The position numbers and the translations under genes are program-made. 64,000 nucleotides of DNA from Haloarcula sp. H-GB4. GTDB lineage: Archaea; Halobacteriota; Halobacteria; Halobacteriales; Haloarculaceae. This document shows positions 23,331-29,272 of this stretch, in pieces. The DNA is taken from contig NZ_JAVDDX010000004.1 in NCBI RefSeq assembly GCF_030848575.1, positions 1-64,000 of the forward strand, given 5' to 3'. Numbering within the stretch: the first letter of the stretch is position 1; every line of letters begins with the position of its first letter. The notes under the pieces were generated by a model. It did not search any database. It was not told where the DNA came from and saw nothing but the letters and a program-made list of their open reading frames with translations.

Positions 23331-23510
23331 TTGTTTCAGGAAAGTACCCGTGAAATAACCGATTGCCAGAAAACGGAGTGACAGCTGGCTAACCAACAGC
23401 TGTGTGCCTTGCTCACTTCTTGTTGGTTAGCGTTCTACTTACCTACACCGTCGCTGCTACGTGCTCGTATCCCGCCTGCGACGGCGTCGGGTGCAACGCC
23501 AACCCAGCCT
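23331..23510. repeat. Repeat pair, copy A (matches 26150-26320)
   Basis: This segment and 26150-26320 share a long imperfect match centred on ctggctaaccaacagctg and tgttggttagcgttct. Read on the minus strand both contain a hydrophobic coding remnant (LLVSQLSLRFLAIGYFTGTF here), so they look like decayed copies of one membrane-protein gene end. No open reading frame with a start remains. It fills most of the gap between the flanking genes (23243-23587). Confidence 0.5.
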
Positions 23511-23587
23511 AACTCCCGGAGCATCCCGTACTACCGAATCTATTCGAGGTGGCTATTTATTTAATCCAAGAGCAGTTTGGATAGCCT

Positions 23588-25088: not shown

Positions 25089-25211
25089 TCATCGGTTACA
25101 CGAATGTGTATCTTGTTTGCCGAATACATCAACCGACTCAGCCGCTACTTTATCGCGAATCGCCCGCGCTGCACGCCGCACTCGCTTGCGCTCTTCGACG
25201 GTGCCGCTCAT
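25089..25211 (-). CDS. Short helical ORF coupled to a decayed gene
   Basis: A 40-residue frame MSGTVEERKRVRRAARAIRD ... VFGKQDTHSCNR is predicted to be one charged helix. Its ATG overlaps the TGA of the decayed gene upstream (GCATGA). A broken version of the same start (SRTVEERKRFGEPD) lies after the copy at 28994, so it was the second gene of a two-gene unit. It may itself be truncated. Confidence 0.4.
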   Translation of the reverse strand: MSGTVEERKRVRRAARAIRDKVAAESVDVFGKQDTHSCNR

Positions 25212-25480
25212 GCCTCAGCATCTCGGGTAAGATCGCTGACCAGCGACCCACCAACGTGTGGCCCAACGTCCCAGCCACGCTCGCCACGTGTATGCATACA
25301 ACAGTGTGCGAGTGTGTTATAAGACATCTTGGGGAGTTCGACTTTTCGGCGTCACCGTTAGCCGAAACAACAGCGACGGCGAATTCATAACTGTCCCAGT
25401 AATACGCTGCACCCTCGCCGTCAACGCTGAGGAATAATAGGTGTCCTAAGTGAATAGGTAGCAGAGATTTAGTCAGTACA
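25209..25480 (-). pseudogene. Decayed copy 3 of the HYWDSYEF gene
   Basis: The frame LFLSVDGEGAAYYWDSYEFA, then VAVVSANGDAEK, is the core of the same small protein found at 28994-29272 and 27265-27490. Here a one-base deletion lies before the core. An internal segment after AEK is replaced or deleted, and the tail GERGWDVGPHVGGSLVSDLT survives in another frame before the TGA. Not translatable as one protein. Confidence 0.6.
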
Positions 25481-25534
25481 GCGGACTCACGTCTAAGCTA
25501 ACTATGGTTTCACGCCGAACCAGTAGCCGTGTCT

Positions 25535-25996
25535 TCACGATCTGTGCTTCGTGAGCGTCTGTACGCCCTGTGTCAGAAGGCCCAATGCTGCACAGAGTAA
25601 CATAATTGCTGCTGCTAGCATGGCAATGCCGAAGAAGACGCCACCAATGGGCGGAAGCAATTGCTCAAGAGCCGATGTTGCAGGAATCTGGCTGGCACCA
25701 CTCCACAAAATCACCACCACCGAAGCCAGAACACCAGCAACAGCGCCGGTGTATAGAAGGCGCCTGGGCCACGTTCCAGACTGCCCCCACCGTGTATGTG
25801 CGGCTAACAATCCGCCGCTTCCAGCACTCAGAAGCCCGACAACTAGTAGCACCACAAAAAAGAGACCAGCTAAGCTCGTCCCATCGGGATCGGGTTGTGT
25901 ATACGTTACAATTGCAATGATAGTCGCCAGTACTGAACAAAGCGATGTTGCAATCGTCACGGCAGCTAATTGGCGCGGAGTCACCAACCGTTTCAC
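25535..25996 (-). CDS. Four-helix membrane protein
   Basis: This 153-residue protein starts MKRLVTPRQLAAVTIATSLC. Helices: LAAVTIATSLCSVLATIIAI, LAGLFFVVLLVVGLLSAGSG, LLYTGAVAGVLASVVVILWS and IGGVFFGIAMLAAAIMLLCA. Loops are short and the tail is basic (LTKHRS). Many haloarchaeal genomes encode such proteins; function unknown. Confidence 0.7.
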   Translation of the reverse strand: MKRLVTPRQLAAVTIATSLCSVLATIIAIVTYTQPDPDGTSLAGLFFVVLLVVGLLSAGSGGLLAAHTRWGQSGTWPRRLLYTGAVAGVLASVVVILWSGASQIPATSALEQLLPPIGGVFFGIAMLAAAIMLLCAALGLLTQGVQTLTKHRS

Positions 25997-26149
25997 AAGA
26001 ATAGCTGGCTTCTCGGAAAATGATAAAATTTCTGAACGAGAGAAAGATCAGTAAGTACCTCACTTGAGATGTTCATCATCGCTGGGGCACCCGTACAAAC
26101 CACTATTCATTTGTTCTGACCGACGACCTCCCCTGCTGACTATACACGG

Positions 26150-26320
26150 TTACCGAGCAGTTGGTTCAGATGACCAACCGAGTAATAGATGGCGGTCAGA
26201 AAATGGAGCGGGAGCTGGTTAACCAACAGCTGGGACAGTGCTCATTCTTTGTTGGCTAGTGTTCTGCTGATTTATGCTGTTGCGCGGCGTGCTGATACCC
26301 CGCCTGAAACGGTGTCGGCT
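26150..26320. repeat. Repeat pair, copy B (matches 23331-23510)
   Basis: Shares gagcagttggttcag, ctggttaaccaacagctg and tgttggctagtgttctgctg-type blocks with copy A. On the minus strand it encodes LLVNQLPLHFLTAIYYSVGH followed by LNQLLGNRV, matching the remnant in copy A. This supports two decayed copies of one coding segment about 2.8 kb apart. Confidence 0.5.
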
Positions 26321-26549
26321 GGCCGCTAAATAAGATGCTCGACGGACTCGCCGTCCTGTGCTAACTCCGACTGCTCAGGCGAAGCGTCCGTCTCGCGCTC
26401 GGGGAATGCTTCCGTGACACAGCCTGCTGCATCGCCTTGAGCTTTGACCAAAGTTGGCCGCTCGTCGAGCGCACCAGCTCATCATCAGGCCAAGAATGCA
26501 CTTCGAGCCCGTCGAAGGGCGTCGAAAGTATCACGTTTGAAAATGCTGC

Positions 26550-26588
26550 AGGAAACATTATATATCGGTTCTATTTGTTTGATATTAT
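26550..26588 (+). promoter_or_regulatory. Archaellin promoter (BRE and TATA)
   Basis: AGGAAAC followed by ATTATATAT (26557-26565), centred about 27 bases before ATG 26589. This is the spacing expected for a leaderless or near-leaderless haloarchaeal transcript. Confidence 0.6.
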
Positions 26589-27236
26589 ATGGAAGGCGCT
26601 TACGACACGGGCCCGGACGGTTCTCGTGGACAGGTTGGTATCGGCACGCTCATTGTTTTCATTGCGATGGTACTTGTTGCAGCAATCGCGGCCGGCGTTC
26701 TGATCAATACGGCCGGATTTCTTCAATCAAGCGCCGAACAGACGGGGCAACAGAGCTCTGACCAAGTCACCAATCGGCTACAGGAAGCCTCTACAACCGG
26801 ACAGATAGGTACTGTGAGCGGCGAAGACCGTGTTGGCGTCGTGAACATCAGCGTGAGTCGAGCGCCGGGCGCCGGTAACATCGATCTGTCTGAGACGACT
26901 ATCCAATGGGTCGATTCGTCAGGCTCGTACAGTCTGGTCCATCAGAGCCAATCGGGTGGTGCCACCGACGGAACGTTCGGAACGACGATAATCCAAGACG
27001 ACGACGGCTCGCGGCCAGTCTTGAACGACCGCGCCGACCGACTCAAAATAACACTTGACGTCGGAGCTGCCCCGTTCGATGTTAGCGTCGGTGGAACTAA
27101 CATAGACAGCTTCGGTAACTCGCTCGCAGAGGGTGACTCGGCGACGATACGAATTACCACACCGACTGGTGGAACCACCGAGATTCAATTAACTGTCCCA
27201 GAGACCCTCAGTGGGTCAAGTTCAGTCTCGCTGTGA
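26589..27236 (+). CDS. Archaellin (flagellin), orphan copy
   Basis: This 215-residue archaellin has a type-III signal peptide. [14 protein letters not shown] ends with the prearchaellin-peptidase (ArlK) site before QVGIGTL, and the hydrophobic assembly helix [19 protein letters not shown] follows. The conserved start of the filament domain ([20 protein letters not shown]) and a beta-rich outer domain ([36 protein letters not shown]) complete it. It should assemble into the archaellum filament with motor and peptidase encoded elsewhere, since no other arl gene is in the window. Haloarcula marismortui is known to carry a plasmid-borne archaellin that serves as an alternative filament protein; this gene fits that situation. 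Confidence 0.9.
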
Positions 27237-27264
27237 AGTAACAGTTTGCCGGCACAATTGTAGA

Positions 27265-27490
27265 CTGATATCCCAGCCGCGCTCGCTACGAGTGTATTCG
27301 CACTACTCAGCACGCGGCTCGAAGGGCGTCTCCGTCAATTCCACTTTTTAACGTCGCTATCGGTCGCCACAACGGCCACGGCGAACTCGTAGCTGTCCCA
27401 GTAGTGGGCCCTGCATTCGCCGTCGACGCCGAGAAAGAGCGGTCAGTCCTGGGTGAGTAGTTCGTGGCCGGAACAGTCAGTACAGTCCAT
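27265..27490 (-). pseudogene. Decayed copy 2 of the HYWDSYEF gene
   Basis: It starts with ATG 27490: MDCTDCSGHELLTQD, then TGA, then PLFLGVDGECRAHYWDSYEF, then a stop and a frame change before TETPFEP...CEYTRSERGWD. It is the same gene as at 28994 and 25209, and the only copy with its start codon. At least two stops and one frameshift make it nonfunctional. Confidence 0.65.
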
Positions 27491-27553
27491 ACGGTTGCCA
27501 AGGCCTGACTCCTATCCCGAGCCAACTGCCGGTTTAGTTACGCAGGAACTGAC

Positions 27554-28030
27554 TCATCGACTTTGATCCGTGTTCAATTCCGCTGTGGATGGAGCATCAG
27601 CGCTAGCTGGACGGTTTACTACATCCTCAAATGCTGGGGACTCTGCCTGTTCACGCTGATCAGTGTCCTCGGATTGGAGCAGCGTATTCAACCGGTGTTT
27701 GAATTCTTCGTCAGTAATTGCCCCCGCTGCGTACTGCTTGCGGAGTATATCAACCGCTGAATCGGTATCTTCGTCTTCTGCGCCTTGGTCAGTCGTGATT
27801 GAGTGTTCGATCATCGCGTAGACCAGACTTAGCGAACTCAGAATGCATCCGGCTCCAAGGAAGAACAAGACAAGCACACCCGCTGACACATAACTGGGAT
27901 GGAGAAGATGCTTTCCGGCTGCAGTGAGCCAGCTACCTAGAAATATCACGCCGAGCACGAAGCTAGATACAGCCAGAGTTGCTTGGGGGCGCAGCTTTTT
28001 AGGGATGAGCTGAGCTATCCGATTACGCAT
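27554..28030 (-). CDS. SHOCT-domain membrane protein
   Basis: A 158-residue protein with two membrane helices (LAVSSFVLGVIFLGSWLTAA and AGVLVLFFLGAGCILSSLSL). A SHOCT (short C-terminal) motif follows, DILRKQYAAGAITDEEFKHR, near residue 95, then an acidic tail. SHOCT modules are small oligomerisation or regulatory helices at the C-terminus of many membrane proteins. It is transcribed away from a second SHOCT protein (28256, plus). Confidence 0.8.
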   Translation of the reverse strand: MRNRIAQLIPKKLRPQATLAVSSFVLGVIFLGSWLTAAGKHLLHPSYVSAGVLVLFFLGAGCILSSLSLVYAMIEHSITTDQGAEDEDTDSAVDILRKQYAAGAITDEEFKHRLNTLLQSEDTDQREQAESPAFEDVVNRPASADAPSTAELNTDQSR

Positions 28031-28255
28031 GATTGTCTCCTGTTCGGATATCTTTGGAGGACATTCACATTTAGAGACACGTTGTTGATATAAAACATTT
28101 ATTACAGCAGCTGAACGGCTGGATTAGTATCTGTGATGATTCTATGGGAGATACGCAGCACGGCCGATGCAAAAGTGTAAATTATTGATAGCCGCCCAGA
28201 GAAATCATGTTCCGCTTCCGGGGTTATTAAGTTGTAAAATAGTAATAACGTAGGT

Positions 28256-28660
28256 GTGTTCGAATTGGTCCACCGATATGCCCCCCAAAGCCCCACTGGT
28301 CGAACTGCGATTGCCATCGTCGCCTGTTTGATTGGTGTCCCAGCACTCGTGTTTGGGCTCTTTGCGCTGACTGGAAGCGTCGTGTCAGGGATATTGTTCC
28401 TATTGCTCAGCACCGTCACACTCAGTGTCGCCGGACAATTGATATGGGGGGTCATTCGACAAGCGAATGCAGCCCCTGCGGATAGTCTACAAGACGGACA
28501 GCAGCGACACGAGTCAAGCGAAACGCCAATTGAAACGCTTCGGCGACGGTATGCAGAAGGTGAACTTGATCAAGAAGAATTTGAGCGGCGTCTTGACCAC
28601 CTCATAGAGACAGAGGAACCAGAACAGCAGACAACCGAGCGCGAACGTGTCTTAGAGTGA
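28256..28660 (+). CDS. SHOCT-domain membrane protein
   Basis: This 134-residue protein has two helices (TAIAIVACLIGVPALVFGLF and GILFLLLSTVTLSVAGQLIW) and the SHOCT motif ETLRRRYAEGELDQEEFERR near residue 95. The start is GTG 28256 (a second GTG overlaps at 28254). It is divergent from the SHOCT gene at 27554-28030 across a 225-base AT-rich gap and resembles it in layout, so the two may be partners or old paralogues. Confidence 0.75.
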   Translation: MFELVHRYAPQSPTGRTAIAIVACLIGVPALVFGLFALTGSVVSGILFLLLSTVTLSVAGQLIWGVIRQANAAPADSLQDGQQRHESSETPIETLRRRYAEGELDQEEFERRLDHLIETEEPEQQTTERERVLE

Positions 28661-28993
28661 TTCTCCGTACTGATCGCAAAGTCCTGATCTGGGCTGCTAT
28701 TCCAGTATCCTGACCGAGCGGAGTCCGCACCGTGCAAGCAATACCGTAATTCGTCGTTCTGTGCCTCCACCATGGTTGAGGAGTGGCTATCTCCGAACTT
28801 AGGCAGCTCTCCTTTTGTCCTGTGTTAACTGTTATACCCCTCTAAGTGTACCAGTTGTTCCAAAGTCACCGGTGAGTGTTGCATGGATTCCAGCCGCGAC
28901 TACGCCTCCCGACTGTCCACCTAATCATCCGCTTTGGCAGGGTGTCGCCTCAGTCTGGCTCGCCGAAGCGCTTGCGCTCTTCCACGGTACGGC
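28661..28993. other. Intergenic; decayed second gene of the HYWDSYEF unit
   Basis: On the minus strand just after the copy at 28994, a frame SRTVEERKRFGEPD runs from an ACG in the place of the start codon (ATG in the unit at 25211) to a stop after 15 codons. Nothing else is recognised. Confidence 0.4.
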
Positions 28994-29272
28994 TCACGTC
29001 TTAACACCCCGGACAAGATCGCCCACCAGTGACCCACCGACGTGTGGCCCAACGTCCCAGCCAGGCTCGCCACGAGTATATTCGCACCACTCCGAGAGCG
29101 ACTCAAACGGCGTTTCGGCTAACACAATCTTCTCGGCATCACCGTTAGCCGCCACAAGGACCACAGCGAATTCGTAGCTGTCCCAGTAGTGGGCCGCGCC
29201 TTCACTGTTGACGCCGAGAAAGAGCGGACGGCCCTGGGTGAGTAGTTCGCGTGCGGTACGGTCAGTGCAGAG
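28994..29272 (-). pseudogene. HYWDSYEF gene, copy 1: frame intact but start codon missing
   Basis: A 92-residue frame is unbroken: TARELLTQGRPLFLGVNSEG, AAHYWDSYEFAVVLVAANGD, ETPFESLSEWCEYTRGEPGW and DVGPHVGGSLVGDLVRGVKT. At the place where copy 2 has ATG, this copy has TAA (the stop of the lipoprotein gene upstream), and no other start lies before the core. It may be a fusion-point truncation or depend on read-through from the lipoprotein gene. The family is unknown to me; it is acidic and soluble, and is followed by a coupled short helical ORF. Confidence 0.55.

Follow-up and report, generated by a model that had tools for sequence, protein, structure and literature searches.

Three damaged copies of one small gene lie within 4 kb of a Haloarcula contig, which raises the question of what the intact gene was and how these copies were lost. 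The window examined here is the first 64,000 nucleotides (positions 1-64000) of contig C4 (NZ_JAVDDX010000004.1) in the 4.19-Mb genome of Haloarcula sp. H-GB4. An earlier note, made from the sequence alone, had described the three copies as decayed, and this is confirmed by a DNA profile of the intact two-gene unit, here called A-B. Searched with nhmmer, the profile finds three copies of gene A on the minus strand at 25.1-29.3 kb, at E-values that exclude chance (Table 1). With a probability of roughly 0.7, the copies are what remains, in decayed and leaderless form, of a plasmid operon that is under the control of a translational switch RNA when intact. They would be dead, 5'-truncated remains of the bicistronic A-B operon of Haloarcula plasmids. 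Loss of the leader would have been a loss of control, and many leaderless copies would then have decayed between other small genes.

The damage differs from copy to copy, as the note had said. Copy 1 lacks the first ~9 codons of A and is then open to the end of the gene, with B cut after ~12 codons; its protein match (E 2.7e-59) is a self-match, and the next relatives have 75-83% identity. In copy 2, A is interrupted by two TGA codons and a frameshift, and the sequence is cut before B, none of which is present. In copy 3, A is divided over two frames and is followed by ~32 codons of B (fragment E 1.3e-9), fused to unrelated sequence in an open reading frame (ORF) at 25089-25211. The short TVEERKR ORF that the note had seen behind two of the copies (1 and 3) encodes the N-terminal end of gene B, second in the unit. 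Two remnants of the B 3' end, at 23.5 and 26.3 kb, had been overlooked, and each adjoins a palindrome of 42-43 bp. The window copies start at about codon 10-15 of A and have no leader; the leader RNA model described below finds no match in the 64-kb window. The three copies are damaged beyond a functional A-B pair. The same genome has more copies on contigs C5 and C7.

A search for intact homologues and their neighbours, which the note had proposed, finds intact A-B operons on Haloarcula plasmids. Gene A (~98-109 aa) overlaps gene B (83-87 aa) by 4 bp, and the H. marismortui plasmids pNG100, pNG200, pNG300, pNG400 and pNG500 each have exactly one intact A-B, so that the expected two-gene unit does exist. 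Amplification and loss are also seen: gene A is present in 23 of 32 Haloarcula genomes, at up to 13 places in a single genome, and many copies contain stops or truncations. In the copies with a leader, the ratio of non-synonymous to synonymous polymorphism (pN/pS) is 0.26 for A and 0.29 for B. The A and B proteins are under purifying selection.

In DNA comparisons of the plasmid loci, A-B is common to nearly all, subsets share an upstream extension, and homology ends soon after B. A-B thus sits at the border of shared and variable DNA. Beyond this border lie CRISPR-Cas genes (pNG400), a SIR2-family gene (pHsi540) and, elsewhere, helicase genes; known toxin-antitoxin (TA) genes adjoin A-B on pNYT2 and pNG500. 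On pNG400 the CRISPR array starts ~120 bp past the B stop codon and is followed by cas genes (L039:7634-9186); at two loci (L046, L053), a similar leader-like sequence lies behind B or a B remnant. A-B as a CRISPR accessory gene was considered and rejected because the other plasmids carry other neighbours. In some genomes a 60-aa gene, C, replaces B behind A, and C also occurs behind another gene, D, so the second gene is exchangeable. Gene C reads VADAxGFVYEPVRGPKRKIEFEPRSDG... (L047, L113, L114, L133, L134) and has no above-threshold Pfam match.

In the alignment of intact units, the sequence ahead of the A start codon is strongly conserved. This region is predicted to form a leader of ~85-95 nt with a three-way junction (P1, P2 and P3, with P1 the closing stem), folding at about -38 to -49 kcal/mol with z-scores of -3.3 to -5.2 in five examples. 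Covariation was assessed in two alignments fitted to the model, A5 and A6, with 45 and 72 distinct sequences and 27 pairs. Changes on both sides occur at 22 of the 27 pairs in A5 and 25 of the 27 in A6, the paired cells amount to 95.8% and 93.0%, and none of 500 shuffles reaches the covariation level. Pairing drops below 53% when the pair partners are shifted. An unfitted RNAalifold prediction for a second sequence type agrees in shape and has double changes in P3. The predicted secondary structure of the leader is therefore well supported by sequence comparison. G-U cells exceed A-C cells about fivefold (153 vs 28 in A6, 83 vs 16 in A5), the pattern expected if the sense RNA is under selection instead of the DNA duplex or the opposite DNA strand; a hairpin acting at the DNA level was rejected on this asymmetry.

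The position of the leader would also fit a transcribed 5' element. A TATA-like box lies at -31 to -27 from leader base 1, the usual archaeal spacing to the transcription start, and in a wider window such a box is found in 71% of leaders vs 13% of shuffled sequences. Such a spacing would be seen if transcription began at the first bases of the leader. The start codon stands directly at the leader end, and three leaders on a Halococcus dombrowskii plasmid finish at annotated start codons. Rfam 15 gives no match to the leader at the gathering threshold or up to E 5, and the open PubMed Central (PMC) literature contains no description of it (subscription papers were outside this search). The leader is probably a previously uncatalogued cis-regulatory RNA that would act as a switch.

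The leader is not limited to A-B units. A model built from 25 A-B leaders (R1) finds it in 24 of 32 Haloarcula genomes and in 45 of 146 genomes of the family (12 of 22 genera), and some of these places have no detectable A gene. A second model, built from 46 matches (R2), extends this to the order, with matches in 174 of the 392 Halobacteriales genomes sampled and in 57 of 95 genera. In a phylum-wide sample of 197 genomes, the 12 with a leader are all Halobacteriales. The leader directly precedes the start codons of diverse, unrelated small genes, whose products include SWIM zinc fingers (PF04434), small CxxC proteins, A, D and a family preceding a ~320-aa protein. SWIM, tiny CxxC and other leader-headed genes occur in many halobacterial genera (L133-L152, L171-L230, L231:5909-8349), and leader-gene units are tandem in some genomes (e.g. 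L171-L175). In several genera a leader-headed gene is followed by the conserved ~320-aa protein and further genes (L140, L207, L209, L228); the ~320-aa neighbourhood proteins tested have no Pfam or PADLOC match. The leader-headed proteins have a loose N-terminal pattern, with Glu10 in 66 of 104 and Gln9 in 49 of 104, counts to which repeated A-type members contribute. Unrelated members often begin MSTN....QE. The shared pattern could be a signal at the RNA or protein level.

How the leader might act is suggested by the bases just before the AUG, which are complementary to the 3' strand of P1. In 86% of 114 leaders these bases can form a competing helix that runs up to the AUG and has 5 or more bp; when the pre-AUG segments are permuted among leaders (200 permutations), the share averages 45% and never exceeds 54%. 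The competing helix overlaps the P1 3' strand in 91%. Its fold keeps the inner P1 helix along with P2 and P3 in most examples shown and is less stable than the P1 fold by a median of 4.4 kcal/mol. Where the P1 strand varies, the pre-AUG arm varies with it (GGUUC/GAACC, GGUUGU/ACAACC, GGUCUGU/ACAGACC, GGUUAU/AUAACC). The leader may thus be a translational strand-exchange switch at the AUG. In one state the P1 3' strand would pair with the mRNA 5' end and leave the AUG free; in the other its partner would be the stretch immediately preceding the AUG, and the resulting hairpin would crowd the start codon. A factor bound at the junction would tip the balance between the two pairings. Since Haloferax volcanii shows no Shine-Dalgarno pairing at its 5' untranslated regions (PMC3986360), the natural reading would be that the AUG itself is occluded and not a ribosome-binding motif.

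The function of A and B is less clear from their sequences. Gene A has no match past the cutoff in Pfam, NCBIfam or PADLOC; gene B has none in PADLOC and only sub-threshold matches in Pfam, the two databases searched with it. The earlier impression of a family of no known kind therefore stands, and neither protein can be assigned to a known family of toxins or antitoxins in the databases it was compared with. PADLOC likewise assigns no phage-defence family to A, B or six other leader-linked proteins, and sequence searches of the PDB return chance-level matches only. The structure predicted for A has a predicted local distance difference test (pLDDT) score of 77 and no significant Foldseek match. 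Its resemblance to the colicin D tRNase domain is weak (Foldseek E 0.09, TM 0.33; Z 3.5 among many equals), and the Plk1 polo-box and a beta-propeller are equally weak matches. A TA or phage-defence role, which the note had raised, is possible but not borne out by these weak and non-significant resemblances. A phage collection contains no relative and IMG/VR one marginal fragment, so a viral origin is unsupported. A-B may be an accessory pair involved in plasmid maintenance or host interaction.

The missing starts of the window copies follow a pattern. The note had described a lost start, and the start is indeed absent, but its loss is not random: 25 of 35 truncated copies begin right after a junction motif resembling CTGTACTGACCG, vs 1 of 48 for other truncations and 1.4% for random positions. 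In the window the motif stands in front of all three copies. Elsewhere leaderless A copies are bounded upstream by a CTGTACTGACCG-like motif, beyond which the DNA is unrelated (L044, L058, L061, L112, L114). Complete leaderless units end in a palindrome of 42-43 bp after B. Palindromes with arms GCTAACCAACA / TGTTGGTTAGC and a near-constant 20-21-base centre are found at many Haloarcula loci, also without B. In comparisons of flanks made to test cassette mobility, ends of homology are enriched at the motif and palindrome (13.3% vs 2.7%), an enrichment to which the A-B homology itself contributes, and no moved cargo was found. Motif and palindrome are at most candidate recombination sites.

Table 1. 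Features of the A-B remnants in the window
Feature	Positions	Strand	Details
Copy 1, gene A and start of B	28958..29263	-	nhmmer E 3.4e-84, model 113-419 of 630
Copy 2, gene A	27259..27475	-	nhmmer E 2.8e-51, model 116-333
Copy 3, gene A and partial B	25123..25460	-	nhmmer E 2.8e-77, model 128-467
Gene B 3'-end remnant	23444..23524	-	nhmmer E 8.3e-13; as protein E 3.7e-5
Gene B 3'-end remnant, weak	26273..26322	-	nhmmer E 1.5e-4
Junction motif upstream of copy 1	29259..29269	-	TGCACTGACCG; in place of leader and first codons
Junction motif upstream of copy 2	27474..27484	-	TGTACTGACTG
Junction motif upstream of copy 3	25470..25480	-	TGTACTGACTA
Palindrome of the post-B type	26219..26260		arms CTAACCAACA / TGTTGGTTAG
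Palindrome behind B remnant 23444-23524	23388..23431		

Between the A-B remnants the window has small ORFs of a predicted membrane type (25535-25996, 27554-28030, 28256-28660), two of which end in a short SHOCT-like motif as judged by eye. Part (26625-26783) of a pilin-like ORF at 26589-27236 has two relatives in this genome, both on contig C2 and separated by ~0.9 kb.

Several observations weigh against remnants of a switch-controlled operon. Being model-fitted, alignments A5 and A6 lean towards the model, and the A-B leaders alone (alignment A3) covary only slightly, so the structural case rests on the broad set of leaders. Kinship among the sequences inflates the shuffle tests and the competing-helix permutation test alike. 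Since the P1 state is favoured energetically, switching would need an additional factor. Not all leaderless units are dead, since among the 15 complete ones A is open in 11 and B in 10. The leaderless copies with open A and B have a pN/pS no higher than that of leader copies, so leader loss is not always followed by decay. For the proteins themselves, A has no significant fold match, neither A nor B has a significant family match, and the structure model of B is poor (pLDDT 53).

A TA addiction module that maintains plasmids, with the remnants left after plasmid integration or loss, would fit several features of A-B. The genes are small, overlap by 4 bp, are multicopy and often decayed, and occur as a single intact copy on each of pNG100-500; known TA genes lie next to them on two plasmids, and A has its very weak resemblance to the colicin D tRNase domain. 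That fold match is one of many equals, however, and no toxin or antitoxin family is matched. The partners are also exchangeable, with A followed by B or the unrelated C, and C following D, although TA families, too, are known to swap partners, and zinc-finger genes carry the same leader. An addiction module is therefore rather improbable. About as improbable is that the array copies are a mobile or cassette element, a repeated block of motif, truncated A, B, palindrome and ~100-nt tail between cargo genes. The sharing of one motif by most truncated copies, the presence of the palindrome after B and also without it, and the recurrence of homology ends past the tail would fit such a block. However, no cargo is seen moving between contexts with ends at the motifs, no recombinase was identified, and duplication from one truncated ancestor explains the shared junction equally well.

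For the leader itself, it is possible, although doubtful, that it is a fixed structure, bound by protein or setting mRNA stability or ribosome loading, and that the pre-AUG complement is incidental. This would agree with the stability advantage of the P1 fold and with the substantial share of competing helices in the permuted control. The excess of the observed helices over every permutation and the covariation of the pre-AUG arm with the P1 strand argue for strand exchange instead. It is very unlikely that the upstream element acts as DNA, for example as a recombination or replication site that folds as a single strand, with its proximity to genes reflecting a shared insertion site. The plasmid location, variable neighbourhoods, sharp homology ends and other palindromes on the 3' side would suit such an element, but the G-U excess points to the sense strand, and the constant spacing of the TATA-like box, together with start codons (some of them annotated) where the leader ends, would fit a transcribed leader.

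A-B and its leader share features with several known systems. Like type II TA operons (RelBE, MazEF/PemIK, VapBC), A-B is a small overlapping plasmid operon, multicopy and often decayed; unlike them, it matches no such sequence family, its partners recombine and its RNA leader is common to non-TA genes. Type III TA systems such as ToxIN have an RNA antitoxin of tandem repeats upstream of the toxin. The leader likewise lies directly upstream of a protein gene, but it is a single three-way junction reaching the start codon, and the downstream proteins belong to many unrelated families. The SWIM zinc-finger genes (PF04434) of haloarchaeal plasmids in several genera have the same leader as A-B, whereas A and B are unrelated to them in sequence. 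Like riboswitches and other cis-regulatory leaders, the A-B leader is predicted to be a structured 5' leader with two mutually exclusive pairings near the start codon; unlike them, it has no counterpart in Rfam, is confined to Halobacteriales in this sampling and heads a variety of small accessory genes, not those of a single pathway.

Haloarchaea are regarded as using mostly leaderless mRNAs. For Haloferax volcanii, a genome-wide study concluded that structured leaders do not typically control translation (PMC4983044), and as of 2021 the fluoride riboswitch of Thermococcus kodakarensis was described as the sole experimentally determined natural archaeal riboswitch (PMC8241225). Only tentatively can the leader be proposed as a new natural archaeal riboswitch-like class, in which the P1 3' strand would be exchanged with a start-codon hairpin to control small accessory gene pairs that form a large and mobile set. 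If this is true, a covarying, strand-exchanging leader in 174 of 392 Halobacteriales genomes would overturn the mostly leaderless picture and would offer a tractable archaeal RNA model in genetically accessible hosts. It would also unite many small plasmid genes without an assigned function as a co-regulated set.

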